DNA of 18,705 bases from Burkholderiales bacterium. Lineage in GTDB: Bacteria > Pseudomonadota > Gammaproteobacteria > Burkholderiales > Usitatibacteraceae. The notes under the pieces are model-generated. The model saw nothing but the letters and a program-made list of their open reading frames with translations. It did not search any database and was not told where the DNA came from. Each line of letters begins with the position of its first letter. The first letter of the stretch is position 1. Below are positions 12,054 to 18,705 of this stretch, piece after piece. The DNA is taken from positions 1 through 18,705 of the forward strand of contig JADGRS010000013.1 of NCBI GenBank assembly GCA_017880705.1. Reading direction: 5' to 3'. The translations under genes and the position numbers were made by a program.

Positions 12054-14438
12054 GTGCGTCTCTTCGTCCTCGCCTTCGTGCTCGGGGCCCTCGGCCTGCA
12101 ACAGGCCGCGGAGCTGTCGCAGCTTCCGATCCTTCCAGAAGCGCTCGCGGCATTGCTGTGCGTGCGGCTGGTTCCCGCGCGGCATCGCCTCGCGCGTTGC
12201 GCGTTGCTTCTCGTCGCGGGAGGGCTCGCGGGATACGGCATCGCCGCCTCGCGCGCCGAGTCGCTCCTCGCGCATTCGCTGCCGAGAGCGTGGGAAGGCG
12301 AAGAGATCGACCTCACCGGCGTTGTCGCCGGGCTTCCGCAGCTCACCGAGAGCGGCACGCGCTTTCCCTTCGACGTCGAATCGGTGCAAACGCGGGGTGT
12401 CGTCGCCGGCGTCCCGCTGGCGGTCCCGCCCACGCTCGCGCTGGCGTGGTACGCGCAGCGCGCGAAGGGCGACGGCGACGCCATTGCGCCGCCGCCCATC
12501 GTGTCGGGCCAGCGATGGCGCGTCGTCGTGCGCCTCAAGCGCCCGCGCGGACTCGCCAATCCGCACGGATTCGACTTCGAGCCGTGGGCGCTGGAGCGCG
12601 GCATCCGCGCGACGGGCTACGTGCGCTTCGGCCCGGGCAACGTGCTCCTCTCGGCGCGGGTCGACGGCTGGCCGTACACGCTGCACCGGTGGCGCGGCGA
12701 GATCCGCGATGCGATGTTCGCGCATCTGGGAAATGACCGATTGCGCGGCGTGCTGGTGGCGCTCGCGATCGGCGACCAGGATTCCATCGCGCCCGACGAC
12801 TGGGAGGTCTTCTGGCGCACCGGCGTGGGCCACCTCATGAGCATCTCGGGCCTGCACATCACCATGTTCGCGGGGCTCGCGTTCACGCTCGTGTATCTCG
12901 CGTGGGTGCGCGTCCCGGCGCTCGCGCTGCGCATCCCCGCGCGCAAGGCGGCGATTGTGGTTGGCGTCGCCGCGGCCCTCGCGTACTCGCTGATGACGGG
13001 ATACCAGGTCCCGGCGCAGCGAACCTTCGTGATGCTCGCCGTCGTCGCCGCGTGCGTCCTCGCGGATCGCCACGGCTCGGCGTCGCGCGTGCTCGCCCTC
13101 GCCGCCCTCGCGGTGGTCGCGCTCGACCCCTGGGCGGTGCTTTCCGCGGGATTCTGGCTCTCGTTCGGCGCCGTCGCCTCGATCTTCTACGTGATGGCCC
13201 TGCGCACCGGGCACGGTGGCAAGCTCCAGGGCGCGGTGCTCGAGCAACTCGCCGTGACCGTGGGAATGCTGCCGACGCTCATCGCGCTCTTCCAGGAAGT
13301 CTCGATCGTCTCCCCCATCGCCAACGCGTTCGCGATTCCGGTCGTGAGCCTCGTCGTGGTGCCGCTCACCATCGCGGGAAGCTTCCTGCCGCTGCCCTTC
13401 CTGCTCGACGCGGCGCACGCGCTCATGCTCGGCGTGATGGTGCCGCTCGAGTGGCTGGCCGACCTGCCGATGGCGATGCTCGAAAGCCACGCGCCGGCAC
13501 CGTGGACATTGGCCGCGGCGGTGGCGGGATGCGCCTGGCTCCTCGCGCCGCGAGGCGTGCCGCTGCGCTCGGCGGGCCTCGCCTGGATGGCGCCGATGTT
13601 CACGGTGCTTCCACCCGGCCCCGCGCCCGGCGAGGCGTGGCTCGACGTCCTCGACGTCGGCAACGGGCTCGCCACGGTGGTGCGCACCGCGAGCCACGCG
13701 CTCGTCTACGACACCGGTCCCGCGTGGAGCGCCGACGTGGATAGCGGCAGCCGCATCGTCGTTCCGTTCCTGCGCGGCGAGGGCGTCAACCGGCTCGATG
13801 GCGTCGTGGTCTCCCACGCCGACGACGATCACTCGGGCGGCGCGGCCTCGATCGCGTATGCGCGCGCACCCGGGTGGCTCCTGTCGCCGCTGGACCCGGG
13901 GCACGCGCTGCATGCGGCATTCGTGAAATCGACGCGCTGCGAGTCGGGCCAGCGCTGGCAATGGGATGGCGTCGACTTCCGAGTGCTCCATCCCTCCGAT
14001 GCGGTGTACGCCGAAACGCGCAAGCGCAAGGAGAACGATCGCGGCTGCGTGGTGCGCATCGCGACCGCGGGCCATTCGCTGCTCCTCGCCGCCGACGTCG
14101 AGGCGCGCAGCGAGGCCGAGATGATCGCGCGCGATCGCGTCGCGCTCGCATCCGACGTGCTCCTCGTGCCGCACCACGGCTCGAAGACCTCGTCGTCGCC
14201 GGACTTCATCGACGCCGTGTCCCCGCGGATCGGCCTGCTCTCGGTGGGCTATCGGAATCGCTTCCACCACCCGAATGCCGCGGTGGTCGCGCGCTACGAG
14301 GCGCGCGGCATCGAGCTGCACCGAACCGATCGGGAAGGCGCGCTGCGCATCATATTGCCTGCACAATCTTCCGCCAGGATCGCTGTCGCGGGCCACGCAA
14401 GCGAGGTGCGATACTGGAGCGAACGGAAACTTCAGTAG
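12054..14438 (+). CDS. comEC: DNA internalisation competence protein ComEC/Rec2
   Basis: A 794-residue polytopic inner-membrane protein that forms the channel for single-stranded DNA in natural transformation. The N-terminal hydrophobic segments and the OB-like DUF4131 region (EEIDLTGVVAGLPQL and QRWRVVVRLKRPRGLANPHG) come first. The Competence domain follows with the family motif LMSISGLHITMFAGL at 261-275 and many membrane helices to about 515. The C-terminal metallo-beta-lactamase-like domain (from about 529, LDVLDVGNGLATVV) has SHADDDHSGG with H588, D592 and H593, and VPHHGSKTS with H707/H708, so putative nuclease residues are kept. Start: GTG at 12054 behind GGGAG (12046-12050). The 3' end overlaps the convergent transglutaminase gene by 7 bp. 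The gene looks intact and full length. Confidence 0.96.
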   Translation: MRLFVLAFVLGALGLQQAAELSQLPILPEALAALLCVRLVPARHRLARCALLLVAGGLAGYGIAASRAESLLAHSLPRAWEGEEIDLTGVVAGLPQLTESGTRFPFDVESVQTRGVVAGVPLAVPPTLALAWYAQRAKGDGDAIAPPPIVSGQRWRVVVRLKRPRGLANPHGFDFEPWALERGIRATGYVRFGPGNVLLSARVDGWPYTLHRWRGEIRDAMFAHLGNDRLRGVLVALAIGDQDSIAPDDWEVFWRTGVGHLMSISGLHITMFAGLAFTLVYLAWVRVPALALRIPARKAAIVVGVAAALAYSLMTGYQVPAQRTFVMLAVVAACVLADRHGSASRVLALAALAVVALDPWAVLSAGFWLSFGAVASIFYVMALRTGHGGKLQGAVLEQLAVTVGMLPTLIALFQEVSIVSPIANAFAIPVVSLVVVPLTIAGSFLPLPFLLDAAHALMLGVMVPLEWLADLPMAMLESHAPAPWTLAAAVAGCAWLLAPRGVPLRSAGLAWMAPMFTVLPPGPAPGEAWLDVLDVGNGLATVVRTASHALVYDTGPAWSADVDSGSRIVVPFLRGEGVNRLDGVVVSHADDDHSGGAASIAYARAPGWLLSPLDPGHALHAAFVKSTRCESGQRWQWDGVDFRVLHPSDAVYAETRKRKENDRGCVVRIATAGHSLLLAADVEARSEAEMIARDRVALASDVLLVPHHGSKTSSSPDFIDAVSPRIGLLSVGYRNRFHHPNAAVVARYEARGIELHRTDREGALRIILPAQSSARIAVAGHASEVRYWSERKLQ

Positions 14439-17400
14439 TAAACCTCGGGAGCCTTGCGCATGTCGAGGGTCACGGGGAAGCGGGGATTGCGCGCCTCCTT
14501 CTGCACCGCCATGGTCCCGGGCGTATGTCCCATCGCCTGGAAACGCGCGACCCGTCGGGCCTCGGCCTCGAGCGCGTTCACCGGGAAGGTCGAGTAGTTG
14601 CGTCCGCCCGGATGCGACACGTGATACGTGCAGCCGCCAAGCGAGCGCTGGTTCCATAGATCGACGAGGTCGAACACCAGCGGCGCGTGGATGCCGATGG
14701 TGGGATGCAGCGCCGAAGGCGGCGCCCACGCGCGGTAGCGCACGCCGGCGACGAACTCTCCCGCGCGCCCCGTCGAGGTCATCGGCACGTAGCGCCCGTT
14801 CACCGTGATCGCGTGCCGCTCCTCGTTGAAGCGCATCGCCTTGACCTGCAGGCGCTCTATCGACGAATCGACGTAGCGCGAGGTGCCCGTCTGCGCGACC
14901 TGCTCGCCCAGCACGTGCCACGGCTCGATCGCCTGCCTCAGCTCGAGCCCGATGCCGTCGTAGGAGACCGAGCCGTAGCGCGGAAAGCGGAACTCGTGGA
15001 ACGGCGCGAACCACTCGAACTGGAAGGGATATCCCGCGGCCTTGAGCTGGTCGACCACGTCGCGCATGTCCTGCGCGACGAAATGCGGCAGCATGAACTC
15101 GTCGTGCAGGCGCGTGCCCCAATGCACGAGCTTCTCGCGATACGGAGTGCTCCAGAAGCGCGCGACCAGCGCGCGCAGCAACAGGATCTGCAGCAAGCTC
15201 ATGCGCGCGTGGGGCGGCATCTCGAAGGCGCGGAATTCGAGGAGGCCGAGGCGGCCCGTCGCGGTCCCCGGCGCGTACAGCTTGTCGATCGAAAACTCCG
15301 CGCGATGGGTGTTGCCGGTGAGGTCCACCAGGAAATTGCGCAGGATGCGGTCGACGAGCCATGGCTTCTCGTTCGGCTGGCTCGGCTTGAACTCCCGCTC
15401 GAGCTGCTCGAAGGCGATCTCGAGCTCGTAGAGCGTGTCGCTGCGCGCCTCGTCCACGCGCGGCGACTGGCTCGTCGGCCCGATGAACGTCCCCGAGAAG
15501 AGATACGAAAGCGCGGGATGGTTCTGCCAATAGGTGACGAGGCTTTGCAGGAGATCGGGGCGGCGCAGGAGCGGGCTGTCGGGCGCGGTGGCCCCGCCGA
15601 GCGTCACGTGGTTGCCGCCGCCGGTGCCCGTATGGCGGCCATCGAGCATGAACTTCTCGGTGCCGAGGCGCGTCGCGCGCGCTTCCTCGTAGAGCGTCGT
15701 GACGTATTGCTTGAGCTCGTCCCAGTTGCCGGCCGGGTGGATGTTCACTTCGATCACGCCGGGATCGGGCGTCACCGCGAAGCGCCCGAGGCGCGGATCG
15801 TCCGGCGGCGGATAGCCTTCGAGCCGCACGCGCACGCCGAGCGCCTGCGCGGTCGCCTCGATCGCGCCGATGAGCGAGATGAAGTCCTCGAGGATGTCGA
15901 CGGGCGGAAGGAAGACGTGGAGCGCGCCCTTGCGCACCTCGACGGCGAGCGCGCGCTTGATCACCTCGCGCGGCGCTCCGGGCGGAAGCGCCTTCGGCTT
16001 CGCGTGCTTCGCCCCCAGCGGCGACTTCGCGGCCTTCCTCTTCCCCAGCGCGTCGCGGCGATCGAACGGATCCTGCGGAATGCTCGGCTCGTCATCCTCG
16101 GGAAGGACCTCGGGGAGCGAGGCAAGCGGCAGGCGATAGCCGAGCGGCGAATCGCCCTCGATGAGGAACACTTTCTCGCGGCGCAACGGCCAGGGCGAGC
16201 TTTGCCAGGTCGTCGGATGGCTCGCCTTGCCGCGCGCGACGGGCTTCAACGGCAGCACGTAGCCCACGGGGTTGCCGAGCCCCCCCGCGATCTTCCCGGC
16301 GAGGCGGCGGCGCGCGGGCTCGCTCGCCGTGTCCTCCGCGAAGAGATCCACGTTCACGGGCAGGTTCGCCTCGTCGCGGAGCGTCCGCCACGGATCCTCG
16401 TAGGCCGGCAGCACGTATTCCGGCGAAAGCTCGAGCGCCTGCGCGAGCTCGGTGGCGAGGCGCCGCGCATCTTCCTCCGTGTTCTTGCCGCCTTCCGGGG
16501 GCCTCGCGTCCTCGTCTTCGCGCTCCCACAACGCGACCCCGTCCTTGCGCCAGAAGCACGACAGCGCCCAGCGCGGCAGCGGCTCGCCGGGATACCACTT
16601 GCCCTGGCCGAAGTGCAGCAGACCGCCCGGCGCGAAGCGCTTGCGCAGCCTGTACAGGAGCGCGGTGGCGAGCTCGTGCTTCGCCGGCGACATCGCGGTG
16701 TAGCTCCACTCGGGGCCTTCCATGTCGTCGATGGAGATGAAGGTCGGCTCGCCGCCCACGGTGAGCCGCACGTCGCCGTCGGCGAGCTCGCGATCGACCT
16801 GCTTGCCGACGGCGTCTATCGCCGACCACTGGGCCTCGGTGAAGGGCTTGGTTACGCGCGGGTCCTCGTTGATGCGCGTGACCGTCATCTCGAACTCGAG
16901 CGTGGTCTTCGCGACTTCCGTCATTCCCGTCACCGGCGCCGCGCTCGTGGGGAGCGCCGCGCTCGCCAGCGGAATGTGGCCTTCGCCCGCGAGCAATCCC
17001 GAGGTCGCGTCGAGGCCGATCCATCCGGCGCCGGGAATGTACGCCTCCGCCCACGCGTGAAGGTCCGTGAAGTCGCGCTCGGTTCCCGACGGGCCGTCGA
17101 GGGATTTCTGGTCCGCGGTGAGCTGGATCAGGTATCCGGACGTGAAGCGCGCCGCGATGCCGAGGAAGCGCAGGATCTGCACCAGGAGCCACGCCGAGTC
17201 GCGGCACGAGCCCTGCATGCATTCGAGCGTCTTCTCGGGCGCCTGGATGCCTTCCTCCATCCGCACGAGATAATTCACGTCCTCGCGCACCATGTGGTTG
17301 ACCGCGATGAGGAGGTCGATGGTGGAGATGGCCTTGCCGAGGAAGCGCGTGCGCGCCTTGTCCACCCACGCTTGCAGGAGCGGCGTCGGGGCAACCTGCT

Positions 17401-17755
17401 CAAGATAGGGCGCGAGCTCGCGGAAATTCTCGTCGCTGTAGGCGAACGGAAACTTCTCGGCGCTCGGATCGACGAAGAAGTCGAACGGGTTGATCACCGT
17501 CATGTCGGCGACCAGGTCCACCACGATCTCGAGCTCGCGCGACTTCTCCGGGAACACGAGCCGCGCCACCCAGTTGCCGTAGGGATCCTGCTGCCAGTTC
17601 AGGAAATGCTTCGCGGGCTTCACCGTGAGCGAGTAGCTCTCGATGGGCGTGCGCGTGTGCGCCGCGGGCCTCAACCGCACCTCGTGCGGCGACAGGCCGA
17701 TCGGCCGGTCGAACGCGTACCGGGTCCTGTGGTGGAGCGCTACCTTGATGGTCAC
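14432..17755 (-). CDS. Transglutaminase fused to DUF2126 (putative amidoligase)
   Basis: A 1107-residue cytoplasmic protein with no signal peptide. Residues 1-115 are the bacterial transglutaminase N-terminal domain (MTIKVALHHRTRYAFDRPIG). Residues about 150-255 are the papain-like transglutaminase core with the triad Cys-184 (QGSCRDSAWLLVQ), His-233 (DLHAWAEAYIPG) and Asp-249 (GLDATSG). From about 329 (LTVGGEPTFISIDDMEGPEW) to the end is DUF2126, split by a charged Lys/Pro linker (555-595). Its C-terminal half has VIEVNIHPAGNWDEL (E669, N671), GGGNHVTLGG (H716) and LEFRAFEMPPH (E840, R842), a pattern like the metal/ATP-site residues of glutamine-synthetase-fold ligases; Pfam calls DUF2126 a putative amidoligase. 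The GTG start has no strong ribosome site. The upstream gene is the Anbu protease, separated by an inverted-repeat element. Substrate unknown. Confidence 0.92.
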   Translation of the reverse strand: MTIKVALHHRTRYAFDRPIGLSPHEVRLRPAAHTRTPIESYSLTVKPAKHFLNWQQDPYGNWVARLVFPEKSRELEIVVDLVADMTVINPFDFFVDPSAEKFPFAYSDENFRELAPYLEQVAPTPLLQAWVDKARTRFLGKAISTIDLLIAVNHMVREDVNYLVRMEEGIQAPEKTLECMQGSCRDSAWLLVQILRFLGIAARFTSGYLIQLTADQKSLDGPSGTERDFTDLHAWAEAYIPGAGWIGLDATSGLLAGEGHIPLASAALPTSAAPVTGMTEVAKTTLEFEMTVTRINEDPRVTKPFTEAQWSAIDAVGKQVDRELADGDVRLTVGGEPTFISIDDMEGPEWSYTAMSPAKHELATALLYRLRKRFAPGGLLHFGQGKWYPGEPLPRWALSCFWRKDGVALWEREDEDARPPEGGKNTEEDARRLATELAQALELSPEYVLPAYEDPWRTLRDEANLPVNVDLFAEDTASEPARRRLAGKIAGGLGNPVGYVLPLKPVARGKASHPTTWQSSPWPLRREKVFLIEGDSPLGYRLPLASLPEVLPEDDEPSIPQDPFDRRDALGKRKAAKSPLGAKHAKPKALPPGAPREVIKRALAVEVRKGALHVFLPPVDILEDFISLIGAIEATAQALGVRVRLEGYPPPDDPRLGRFAVTPDPGVIEVNIHPAGNWDELKQYVTTLYEEARATRLGTEKFMLDGRHTGTGGGNHVTLGGATAPDSPLLRRPDLLQSLVTYWQNHPALSYLFSGTFIGPTSQSPRVDEARSDTLYELEIAFEQLEREFKPSQPNEKPWLVDRILRNFLVDLTGNTHRAEFSIDKLYAPGTATGRLGLLEFRAFEMPPHARMSLLQILLLRALVARFWSTPYREKLVHWGTRLHDEFMLPHFVAQDMRDVVDQLKAAGYPFQFEWFAPFHEFRFPRYGSVSYDGIGLELRQAIEPWHVLGEQVAQTGTSRYVDSSIERLQVKAMRFNEERHAITVNGRYVPMTSTGRAGEFVAGVRYRAWAPPSALHPTIGIHAPLVFDLVDLWNQRSLGGCTYHVSHPGGRNYSTFPVNALEAEARRVARFQAMGHTPGTMAVQKEARNPRFPVTLDMRKAPEVYY

Positions 17756-17777
17756 TTAGCGGCTGACGGAGAGAAAG

Positions 17778-17930
17778 GGCTTTGAATCCGCAGATAAACG
17801 CAGATGAACGCCGTAAAACCACTCTGCAAGATCATTCCGGTTCGACTTGCGCAACCATGGGCACGACATTGCGGAGAGTCGCCTTTCGGGGTTACCGCGT
17901 TCATCTGCGTTTATCTGCGGATCCAAAGCC
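17778..17930. repeat. 153 bp inverted-repeat element with 43 bp arms
   Basis: The left arm (17778-17820) and right arm (17888-17930) are reverse complements over 43 bp with only about four mismatches; the central 26 bp (17786-17811 against 17897-17922) is perfect. Each arm contains the near-tandem units CGCAGATAAA and CGCAGATGAA followed by CGC. A 67 bp middle separates the arms, and parts of it (ACTCTGCAA against TTGCGGAGAGT) can nearly pair too. It has no open frame of its own and is more A/T-rich than the genes around it. Similar 'cgttcatctgcgtttatctgcgg' words, which I recall as dispersed intergenic repeats in several proteobacteria, suggest a MITE- or REP-like family; this needs a genome count. 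It fills nearly all of the gap between Anbu and the transglutaminase. Confidence 0.9.
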
Positions 17931-17941
17931 TCTTGCCCGCA

Positions 17942-18676
17942 TCACTCCAGCCAGTCGGGATCGGGAAGCTCGGAGAAGACGCGCCGAAGGCCGCCGCCCC
18001 AGCGCGAGCGAAGCATCGTGAAGTAGGGGTCGCCTTCGCGGACGCGATGCTGCATGCCGACCCGCAGGCTGTCGCGCGGATACCAGAGGACGTCGATCGG
18101 AAGGCCCACGGAAATGTTCGACTTCATGGTCGAATCGAAGGAGATCAGCACGCACTTGGCGGCCTCCTTCTGCGGCGTGGCCATCGAGACCACGCGGTCG
18201 AGGATCGGCTTGCCGTACTTGGACTCTCCCAGCTGGAAATAGGGGGTGTCGTCGGTGGCCTCGATGAAGTTGCCCTGCGAATAGACGTGGAACAGGCGCG
18301 GCGGCTCCTTGCCGATCTGCCCGCCGACCAGGAGGTTCGCGTTCGGCTCGATGCTCGATTGCGCGAGAAACGGGGCGTCGCGCCGCTGCATCTCGCGCAG
18401 CGCGTCGCCGACGAGCGAGGTCGCGTCGTACATCGAGTTCGAGGTCCAGATGGTCTCCTCGCCCTCGGCGGCCTTCGCGTGCTTGTCGAGGATGTTCACG
18501 ACGCCCTGGGTCATGGCGAGGTTTCCCGACGAGAGGACCACGATCACGCGGTCGTCCTTCCTTTCGTAGACGCGCATCTTCGAGAACGTGGCGATGTGGT
18601 CCACGCCGGCATTGGTGCGCGAGTCCGAGGCGAAGATCATCCCGGAATCGAGGCGGAGGGCTACGCAGTAGGTCAT
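17942..18676 (-). CDS. Proteasome-type protease, Anbu family (COG3484)
   Basis: A 244-residue Ntn-hydrolase related to proteasome beta subunits and HslV. It starts MTYCVALRLDSGMIFASDSR: once Met is removed, Thr becomes the N-terminal nucleophile, and Asp-17 (ASDSRTNAG) and Lys-32 (TFSKM), counted from that Thr, fill the other active-site places (Asp17/Lys33 in proteasomes). The family-specific LVGGQIGKEPPRLFHVYSQG and TPYFQLGESKYGKPILDR segments separate it from HslV, which is shorter, and from true 20S subunits. Known Anbu proteins assemble as rings or open lock-washers and co-occur with transglutaminase, alpha-E and ATP-grasp genes. Here the transglutaminase/DUF2126 gene follows on the same strand, 186 bp downstream. 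No clear Shine-Dalgarno precedes the ATG at 18676. Its physiological substrate is unknown. Confidence 0.93.
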   Translation of the reverse strand: MTYCVALRLDSGMIFASDSRTNAGVDHIATFSKMRVYERKDDRVIVVLSSGNLAMTQGVVNILDKHAKAAEGEETIWTSNSMYDATSLVGDALREMQRRDAPFLAQSSIEPNANLLVGGQIGKEPPRLFHVYSQGNFIEATDDTPYFQLGESKYGKPILDRVVSMATPQKEAAKCVLISFDSTMKSNISVGLPIDVLWYPRDSLRVGMQHRVREGDPYFTMLRSRWGGGLRRVFSELPDPDWLE

Positions 18677-18705
18677 GGTGGGTGAATGTTACTCGACCAC
18701 GCGGG

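Follow-up and report, generated by a model that had tools for sequence, protein, structure and literature searches.

The window, an 18,705-nucleotide stretch of DNA from a Burkholderiales bacterium of the Usitatibacteraceae, makes up the entire contig C320 of a metagenome-assembled genome (MAG; 3.28 Mb, 509 contigs, 87% complete). Protein names place this genome close to Usitatibacter. Near its end, two genes lie on the minus strand. The transcriptionally upstream gene (17942..18676) encodes Anbu, a proteasome-like Ntn-hydrolase of 244 aa. It is followed by a gene with a GTG start codon (14432..17755) that encodes a 1107-aa fusion of a transglutaminase with a DUF2126 domain (TG-DUF2126). Both open reading frames (ORFs) lie where the original prediction had placed them, 186 bp apart (17756-17941), and both have a GC content of 0.91 at third codon positions. 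Most likely, they form the downstream half of an operon with four genes in the order ATP-grasp - alpha-E - Anbu - TG-DUF2126. It would be a variant form of the known Anbu operon: where the published version has a transglutaminase-like protein, there is a transglutaminase fused to a ligase with a predicted glutamine synthetase fold.

The Anbu protein matched the Pfam family Proteasome with 25 bits only. In a comparison with Protein Data Bank (PDB) sequences, all five matches at E ≤ 0.01 had E values of 6e-96 to 3e-73; their names are Anbu (5loy, 5nyj, 5nyf) or Peptidase (5nyw, 5lox), and 5lox is termed Anbu in PMC8665760. A scripted check of the sequence letters located the catalytic candidates Thr1, Asp17 and Lys32 of the mature protein, with the numbering Thr1, Asp17, Lys32(33) taken from PMC6376114. 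Judging from these sequence matches, the protein belongs to the Anbu family.

TG-DUF2126 consists of a Bact_transglu_N domain (residues 6-83, 92 bits), a Transglut_core domain (residues 147-250, 61 bits; 17006..17317, minus strand) and DUF2126 (PF09899; residues 281-1100, 1285 bits; 14456..16915, minus strand). The DUF2126 match exceeds the Pfam gathering score and covers profile positions 2-826 of 826. The transglutaminase residues Cys184, His233 and Asp249, likewise located by script, were invariant in 37 of 37 aligned sequences. Hence, both the Thr/Asp/Lys active site of Anbu and the intact Cys-His-Asp triad of a 1107-residue protein on the same strand, as originally predicted, were confirmed. 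The structural model of DUF2126 has a predicted glutamine synthetase fold, which supports the earlier proposal that this domain may form amide bonds. In the alignment, the domain also has invariant Glu, His, Asn and Arg residues, which might correspond to ATP- or metal-binding positions.

Upstream of the Anbu ATG, the contig continues for only 29 bp, and its end still contains the final four codons and the stop codon (RVVE-stop; 18689..18703, minus strand) of a truncated gene. The same C-terminus is found in the alpha-E gene on contig C131 (9043 bp) of the same MAG, where the gene order is ATP-grasp - alpha-E - Anbu. On C131, the ATP-grasp is of the type-2 circularly permuted kind (PF14403, 561 bits; E 2e-217 to PDB 3n6x), the alpha-E protein matches PF04168 with 346 bits, and the Anbu gene is 90% identical to that of the window in DNA and 95% in protein. 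The original prediction of ATP-grasp (DUF404/407) and alpha-E partners thus proved correct. The window is one contig of a 509-contig MAG, and the partner genes are therefore missing because of the contig edge rather than through biological absence.

As the genome yielded a single ATP-grasp, a single alpha-E and a single DUF2126, we interpret the C131 copy as the same locus. Of the two conserved flanks of the operon in the family, the upstream one, a RelA/SpoT-like gene, is on C131, and the downstream one, a convergent ComEC-like competence gene outside the operon, is in the window (12054..14438, plus strand; identified by Pfam and ORF comparison). C131 and C320 would then each hold one half of the same locus, coming from two strains binned together, and we rejected the interpretation of the C131 Anbu as a paralogue in favour of this explanation. 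A third Anbu gene of the genome, on contig C497, is 57% identical and located beside a small transglutaminase. This second kind of Anbu, 55-57% identical and adjoining a small transglutaminase, was observed in the own genome (L085 on C497) and in two relatives (L100 and L101). These three genes group together in a supported clade, which two Anbu genes from other families join.

Conservation of the gene pair was studied in 28 genomes of the family, including its own. Anbu was present in 22 of these genomes and DUF2126 in 18, while none contained DUF2126 without Anbu (Fisher p 6e-4). The two genes were side by side on one contig in 13 of the 18 genomes with DUF2126, including all four single-contig genomes (G010, G023, G024, G025). 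In G018 the fusion gene is truncated by the contig end directly after Anbu, and in the remaining four genomes Anbu and DUF2126 are on separate contigs. The order ATP-grasp - alpha-E - Anbu - TG-DUF2126 was found in 11 other family genomes (loci L086-L089, L009/L090, L091-L095 and L098), with the first gene cut by the contig end in L095 and the last in L098.

In a wider comparison, 92 TG-DUF2126 loci were examined (80 named best hits, the window and the 11 family loci). Anbu was directly upstream on the same strand in 20 of them and a second ATP-grasp, diverged and mostly fused to alpha-E, was downstream in 62, while no locus had both. Among 276 genomes of the class, again including its own, DUF2126 was found in 53 and Anbu in 69. 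Without the own genome, 43 genomes contained both, 25 only Anbu, 9 only DUF2126 and 198 neither, which corresponds to an odds ratio of 38 (p 9e-24, uncorrected for kinship). Co-conservation of the pair, another part of the original prediction, was thus borne out in the family and in the class.

In a quick tree of 91 rows based on the first 80 loci, all 19 Anbu-adjacent rows fell into one clade of 24 rows, with a support of 99 in the Shimodaira-Hasegawa-like approximate likelihood ratio test (SH-aLRT). A single origin of the pairing was nevertheless dropped, because in the wider class sample the pair also occurs in other Anbu clades and gene orders. In three loci (L034, L003, L020), TG-DUF2126 belongs to the Anbu-paired clade but does not directly follow an Anbu gene, and L034 retains ATP-grasp and alpha-E; these may be secondary losses or moves.

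We also surveyed the genes within 6 kb of 60 Anbu genes in 59 loci, a subset of the Anbu places in the class. ATP-grasp and alpha-E were both present near 42 of the 60 Anbu genes: 15 of 19 Anbu genes in the adjacent loci, 2 of 2 in L122-L123, 18 of 25 in genomes with Anbu only, and 7 of 14 in genomes with non-adjacent DUF2126. TG-DUF2126 was present near 21 Anbu genes and a small transglutaminase near 8. Hence, ATP-grasp, alpha-E and Anbu form the steadier core, and the transglutaminase is the variable part. Of the 25 Anbu genes in genomes without DUF2126 (L124-L148), only four had a detectable transglutaminase within 6 kb, unlike the published description of a four-gene operon.

The 186-bp gap between Anbu and TG-DUF2126 (17756..17941, minus strand) contains a palindromic repeat with 24-nt arms (17788-17811 and 17897-17920) that folds into a long hairpin (-97 kcal/mol, z -9.4). 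At up to three mismatches, the arm has 52 matches in the genome, mostly as inverted pairs about 90-110 bp apart, against none for a control with the reversed pattern. It looks like an interspersed element of the repetitive extragenic palindromic (REP) or miniature inverted-repeat transposable element (MITE) type. The same gap ranges from 0 to 860 bp in relatives, some of which contain other repeats, a GIY-YIG-like ORF (read from the letters) or an unknown ORF. In three closed genomes of the same genus (L086-L088), the gap contains an ORF of about 160-170 aa that appears secreted from a reading of its N-terminus, and no Pfam match was found in the two that were scanned (L086, L087). We did not count this ORF as a member of the system, as the window has the repeat in its place.

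The mobile-looking repeat and the insertions in relatives would suit the alternative that Anbu adjoins TG-DUF2126 merely through chance or shared descent, the two being transcribed as separate units. In contrast, the two genes occur within 1 kb of each other in 18 of the 43 class genomes that contain both, 12 times on the same strand and 6 times on opposite strands, with the four genes in several different orders around these 18 pairs. Moreover, the gap shrinks to 0-1 bp in L004, L007 and L098. We consider this alternative very improbable. No sigma70-like promoter or terminator was found on the operon strand between 14300 and 18705, and the best sigma54 score inside the gap was only 10 (see below for scoring), so that co-transcription across the gap seems likely from the sequence.

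Sigma54 promoters have the consensus TGGCACG-N4-TTGCW. For every unit, we scored the match to this consensus, out of 16 points, in front of the gene that leads it; the scores indicate promoter-like sites rather than mapped promoters. The site upstream of the ATP-grasp gene on C131, and hence outside the window, scored 15; its place on another contig is why the original prediction missed this nitrogen-limitation signal. Among ATP-grasp leaders of loci with Anbu and DUF2126, 15 of 27 scored at least 14 and 10 of 27 at least 15, compared with 1.3% and 0.19% of 4800 random windows of the same length. A score of at least 14 was also found for 9 of 13 ATP-grasp leaders in Anbu-less loci with a fused second ATP-grasp, whereas among TG-DUF2126 leaders it was reached by 3 of 14 where Anbu is present and by 6 of 48 in the Anbu-less, fused type. 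The 12 ATP-grasp leaders of the family (C131 included) all scored 13-16, with a mean of 14.9 and nine of at least 15; in 400 random draws of 12 windows the mean was at most 11.83. The pairwise identity of these family sites was 84% in the core letters and 26% in the flanks, versus 52% for randomly chosen best sites.

The regulation was also compared with published data. NtrC and sigma54 are required for a cluster of Burkholderia cenocepacia H111 that is annotated as DUF404/407, DUF403, transglutaminase and large transglutaminase protein (PMC5491218). Five other Burkholderia loci (L021, L026, L028, L033, L042) have similar genes, with a site scoring 14-15 upstream of ATP-grasp, from which we infer that the large transglutaminase protein of B. 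cenocepacia is TG-DUF2126. Induction of the Anbu operon by nitrogen limitation is reported for Pseudomonas putida (PMC8050072, PMC7801951), and a predicted sigma54 regulon includes COG3484, the Anbu group (PMC12316311).

Our favoured explanation, which we hold to be fairly probable, is that the four genes form an amide-building and amide-breaking operon switched by nitrogen limitation. What the computations show is the gene content, its order in relatives, the co-conservation, a sigma54-like site and, as a prediction, the glutamine synthetase fold of DUF2126; the union of C131 and C320 in one locus, control by NtrC in this organism, co-transcription across the 186-bp gap, all chemical steps and all substrates are inferred. 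An amide module for nitrogen-poor conditions is favoured in view of the second ATP-dependent ligase fold predicted in the fusion protein and of the nitrogen-limitation signal. Most likely, NtrC would turn the operon on under nitrogen limitation via the sigma54 promoter-like site upstream of ATP-grasp. ATP-grasp and the DUF2126 domain would join a carboxylate to an amine using ATP, the transglutaminase would move or remove amide groups at glutamine or gamma-glutamyl positions, and Anbu would hydrolyse the product or a modified protein. Amide nitrogen could thereby be banked and recovered. According to PMC6376114, the ATP-grasp of the operon liberates phosphate from ATP.

Several observations weigh against this explanation. 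The fusion protein was modelled with only moderate confidence (mean predicted local distance difference test score, pLDDT, of 71, with transglutaminase residues 205-236 below 50). According to PMC6376114, purified Anbu cleaved none of three proteasome substrates and formed no stable or specific complex with other operon proteins; these in vitro assays employed standard proteasome peptides. The gap between Anbu and TG-DUF2126 reaches 860 bp in relatives. With respect to regulation, 12 of the 27 ATP-grasp leaders in loci with Anbu and DUF2126 scored below 14, four of them without any candidate, and only 8 of 28 reached 14 in Anbu loci without DUF2126 on the stretch. If the ATP-grasp ORF is taken at its maximum length, it includes the site on C131, which precedes the start suggested by homology by 61 nt. 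No NtrC-like site with up to three mismatches was found within 300 bp of it, and one with up to two mismatches was found in 5 of 18 loci (background 3.5%). In P. putida, induction of PP_2686-2688 is retained in an rpoN mutant (14-20 fold), as is that of urtA-D in the same table, and PP_2685 (Anbu) changes only 1.12 fold in the wild type (PMC7801951).

Finally, 11 of the 60 Anbu genes had no operon gene within 6 kb, namely 7 of 14 in genomes with non-adjacent DUF2126 and 4 of 25 in genomes with Anbu only. These lone genes favour general protein turnover during nitrogen starvation, in which Anbu would degrade proteins and the other genes would only process the released peptides or ammonia; they raised our estimate of this alternative and lowered that of the amide-building and amide-breaking operon. 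Turnover has been suggested in PMC5666114, and the induction of Anbu genes in P. putida by nitrogen limitation (PMC8050072) agrees with it. In contrast, the promoter signal is on the ATP-grasp leaders (15 of 27 with at least 14) and not on Anbu leaders, of which 2 of 39 and 0 of 17 scored at least 14. Likewise, the promoter of PP_2688 (ATP-grasp) responds to nitrogen depletion and that of PP_2685 (Anbu) does not (PMC8050072), which fits a sigma54-like site on ATP-grasp rather than Anbu. Overall, we regard turnover as distinctly unlikely.

The original prediction also included possible peptide tagging. To look for a tag gene, all ORFs of at least 35 aa from 18 loci were grouped by BLASTP (E 1e-6, 60% coverage, low-complexity filter on). 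By position, the 46 largest recurring groups consisted of the four genes, the family flanks (RelA/SpoT-like upstream, ComEC downstream) and shadow frames. Hence, these groups contained neither a conserved small ORF next to the four genes nor a Pup-like tag gene, and within this scope we set aside a Pup-like tag encoded in the operon or adjacent to it; tags that are shorter, evolve faster or lie far away would be beyond the reach of this search. The Pup ligase has a glutamine synthetase fold. By analogy with the Pup-proteasome system, DUF2126 would attach a tag, the transglutaminase would edit it and Anbu would remove or degrade it. That a ligase with a predicted glutamine synthetase fold is encoded next to a relative of the proteasome speaks for this scheme, and a tagging hypothesis has already been published (PMC6376114). 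The lack of a tag candidate among the groups examined and the inactivity of Anbu on proteasome substrates in vitro (PMC6376114) speak against it, and we give it little credence.

A further reading, which we consider possible though rather unlikely, is a nitrogen-starvation pathway acting on gamma-glutamyl (isopeptide) amides. The fused ligase-transglutaminase, ATP-grasp and alpha-E would build or load a nitrogen-rich amide on a peptide or protein, with Anbu as dedicated hydrolase working without an ATPase. If true, this would be the first function for Anbu, and a proteasome relative would serve nitrogen storage or recovery, not protein destruction. Structures of Anbu have been solved, yet the literature searched gave no substrate or activity, which leaves a gap in the story of proteasome evolution. 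The link to amide-bond enzymes and the conserved sigma54-like site make a role of Anbu testable.

The term DUF2126 was absent from the literature searched, which did not take in Iyer et al. 2009, the likeliest place for an earlier description of this set of genes. The original prediction had seen a candidate for an undescribed system. However, an Anbu operon with transglutaminase, ATP-grasp and alpha-E, as well as the idea of peptide synthesis, are already found in PMC5666114 and PMC6376114, both citing Iyer et al. 2009. The published operon (P. putida PP_2685-2688, Yersinia bercovieri) shares its ATP-grasp, alpha-E and Anbu families with the present one and likewise contains a transglutaminase, which in P. 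putida is a separate gene by annotation (PMC7801951). In contrast, the transglutaminase of the window is a 1107-aa fusion to a predicted glutamine synthetase-fold domain, and Anbu is third, not last. The published order, with the transglutaminase before Anbu (PMC6376114), was not found here, as TG-DUF2126 follows Anbu.

The cluster of B. cenocepacia (BCAM1233-1236) and the five Burkholderia loci share ATP-grasp, alpha-E and the large transglutaminase protein with the operon described here, but have an additional small transglutaminase; in the five loci, a second ATP-grasp fused to alpha-E follows and Anbu is not among the genes. The Anbu-less system, exemplified by Pseudomonas locus L036 (TG-DUF2126, fused ATP-grasp~alpha-E, transglutaminase), has the same TG-DUF2126 family, but no Anbu directly upstream and a second, diverged ATP-grasp. 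The rlo and rim systems likewise combine a protease with an ATP-grasp, and rlo also has a transglutaminase-like protein (PMC12239564). However, their protease is retropepsin-like, the rlo transglutaminase is membrane-bound and inactive, and neither alpha-E nor DUF2126 is named in the available text of PMC12239564.

The RelA/SpoT-like gene (L084, 3526-5766) is a divergent neighbour of the operon in the family, and in P. putida the induction of PP_2685-2688 is reported to be stronger in a relA/spoT mutant (PMC7801951).

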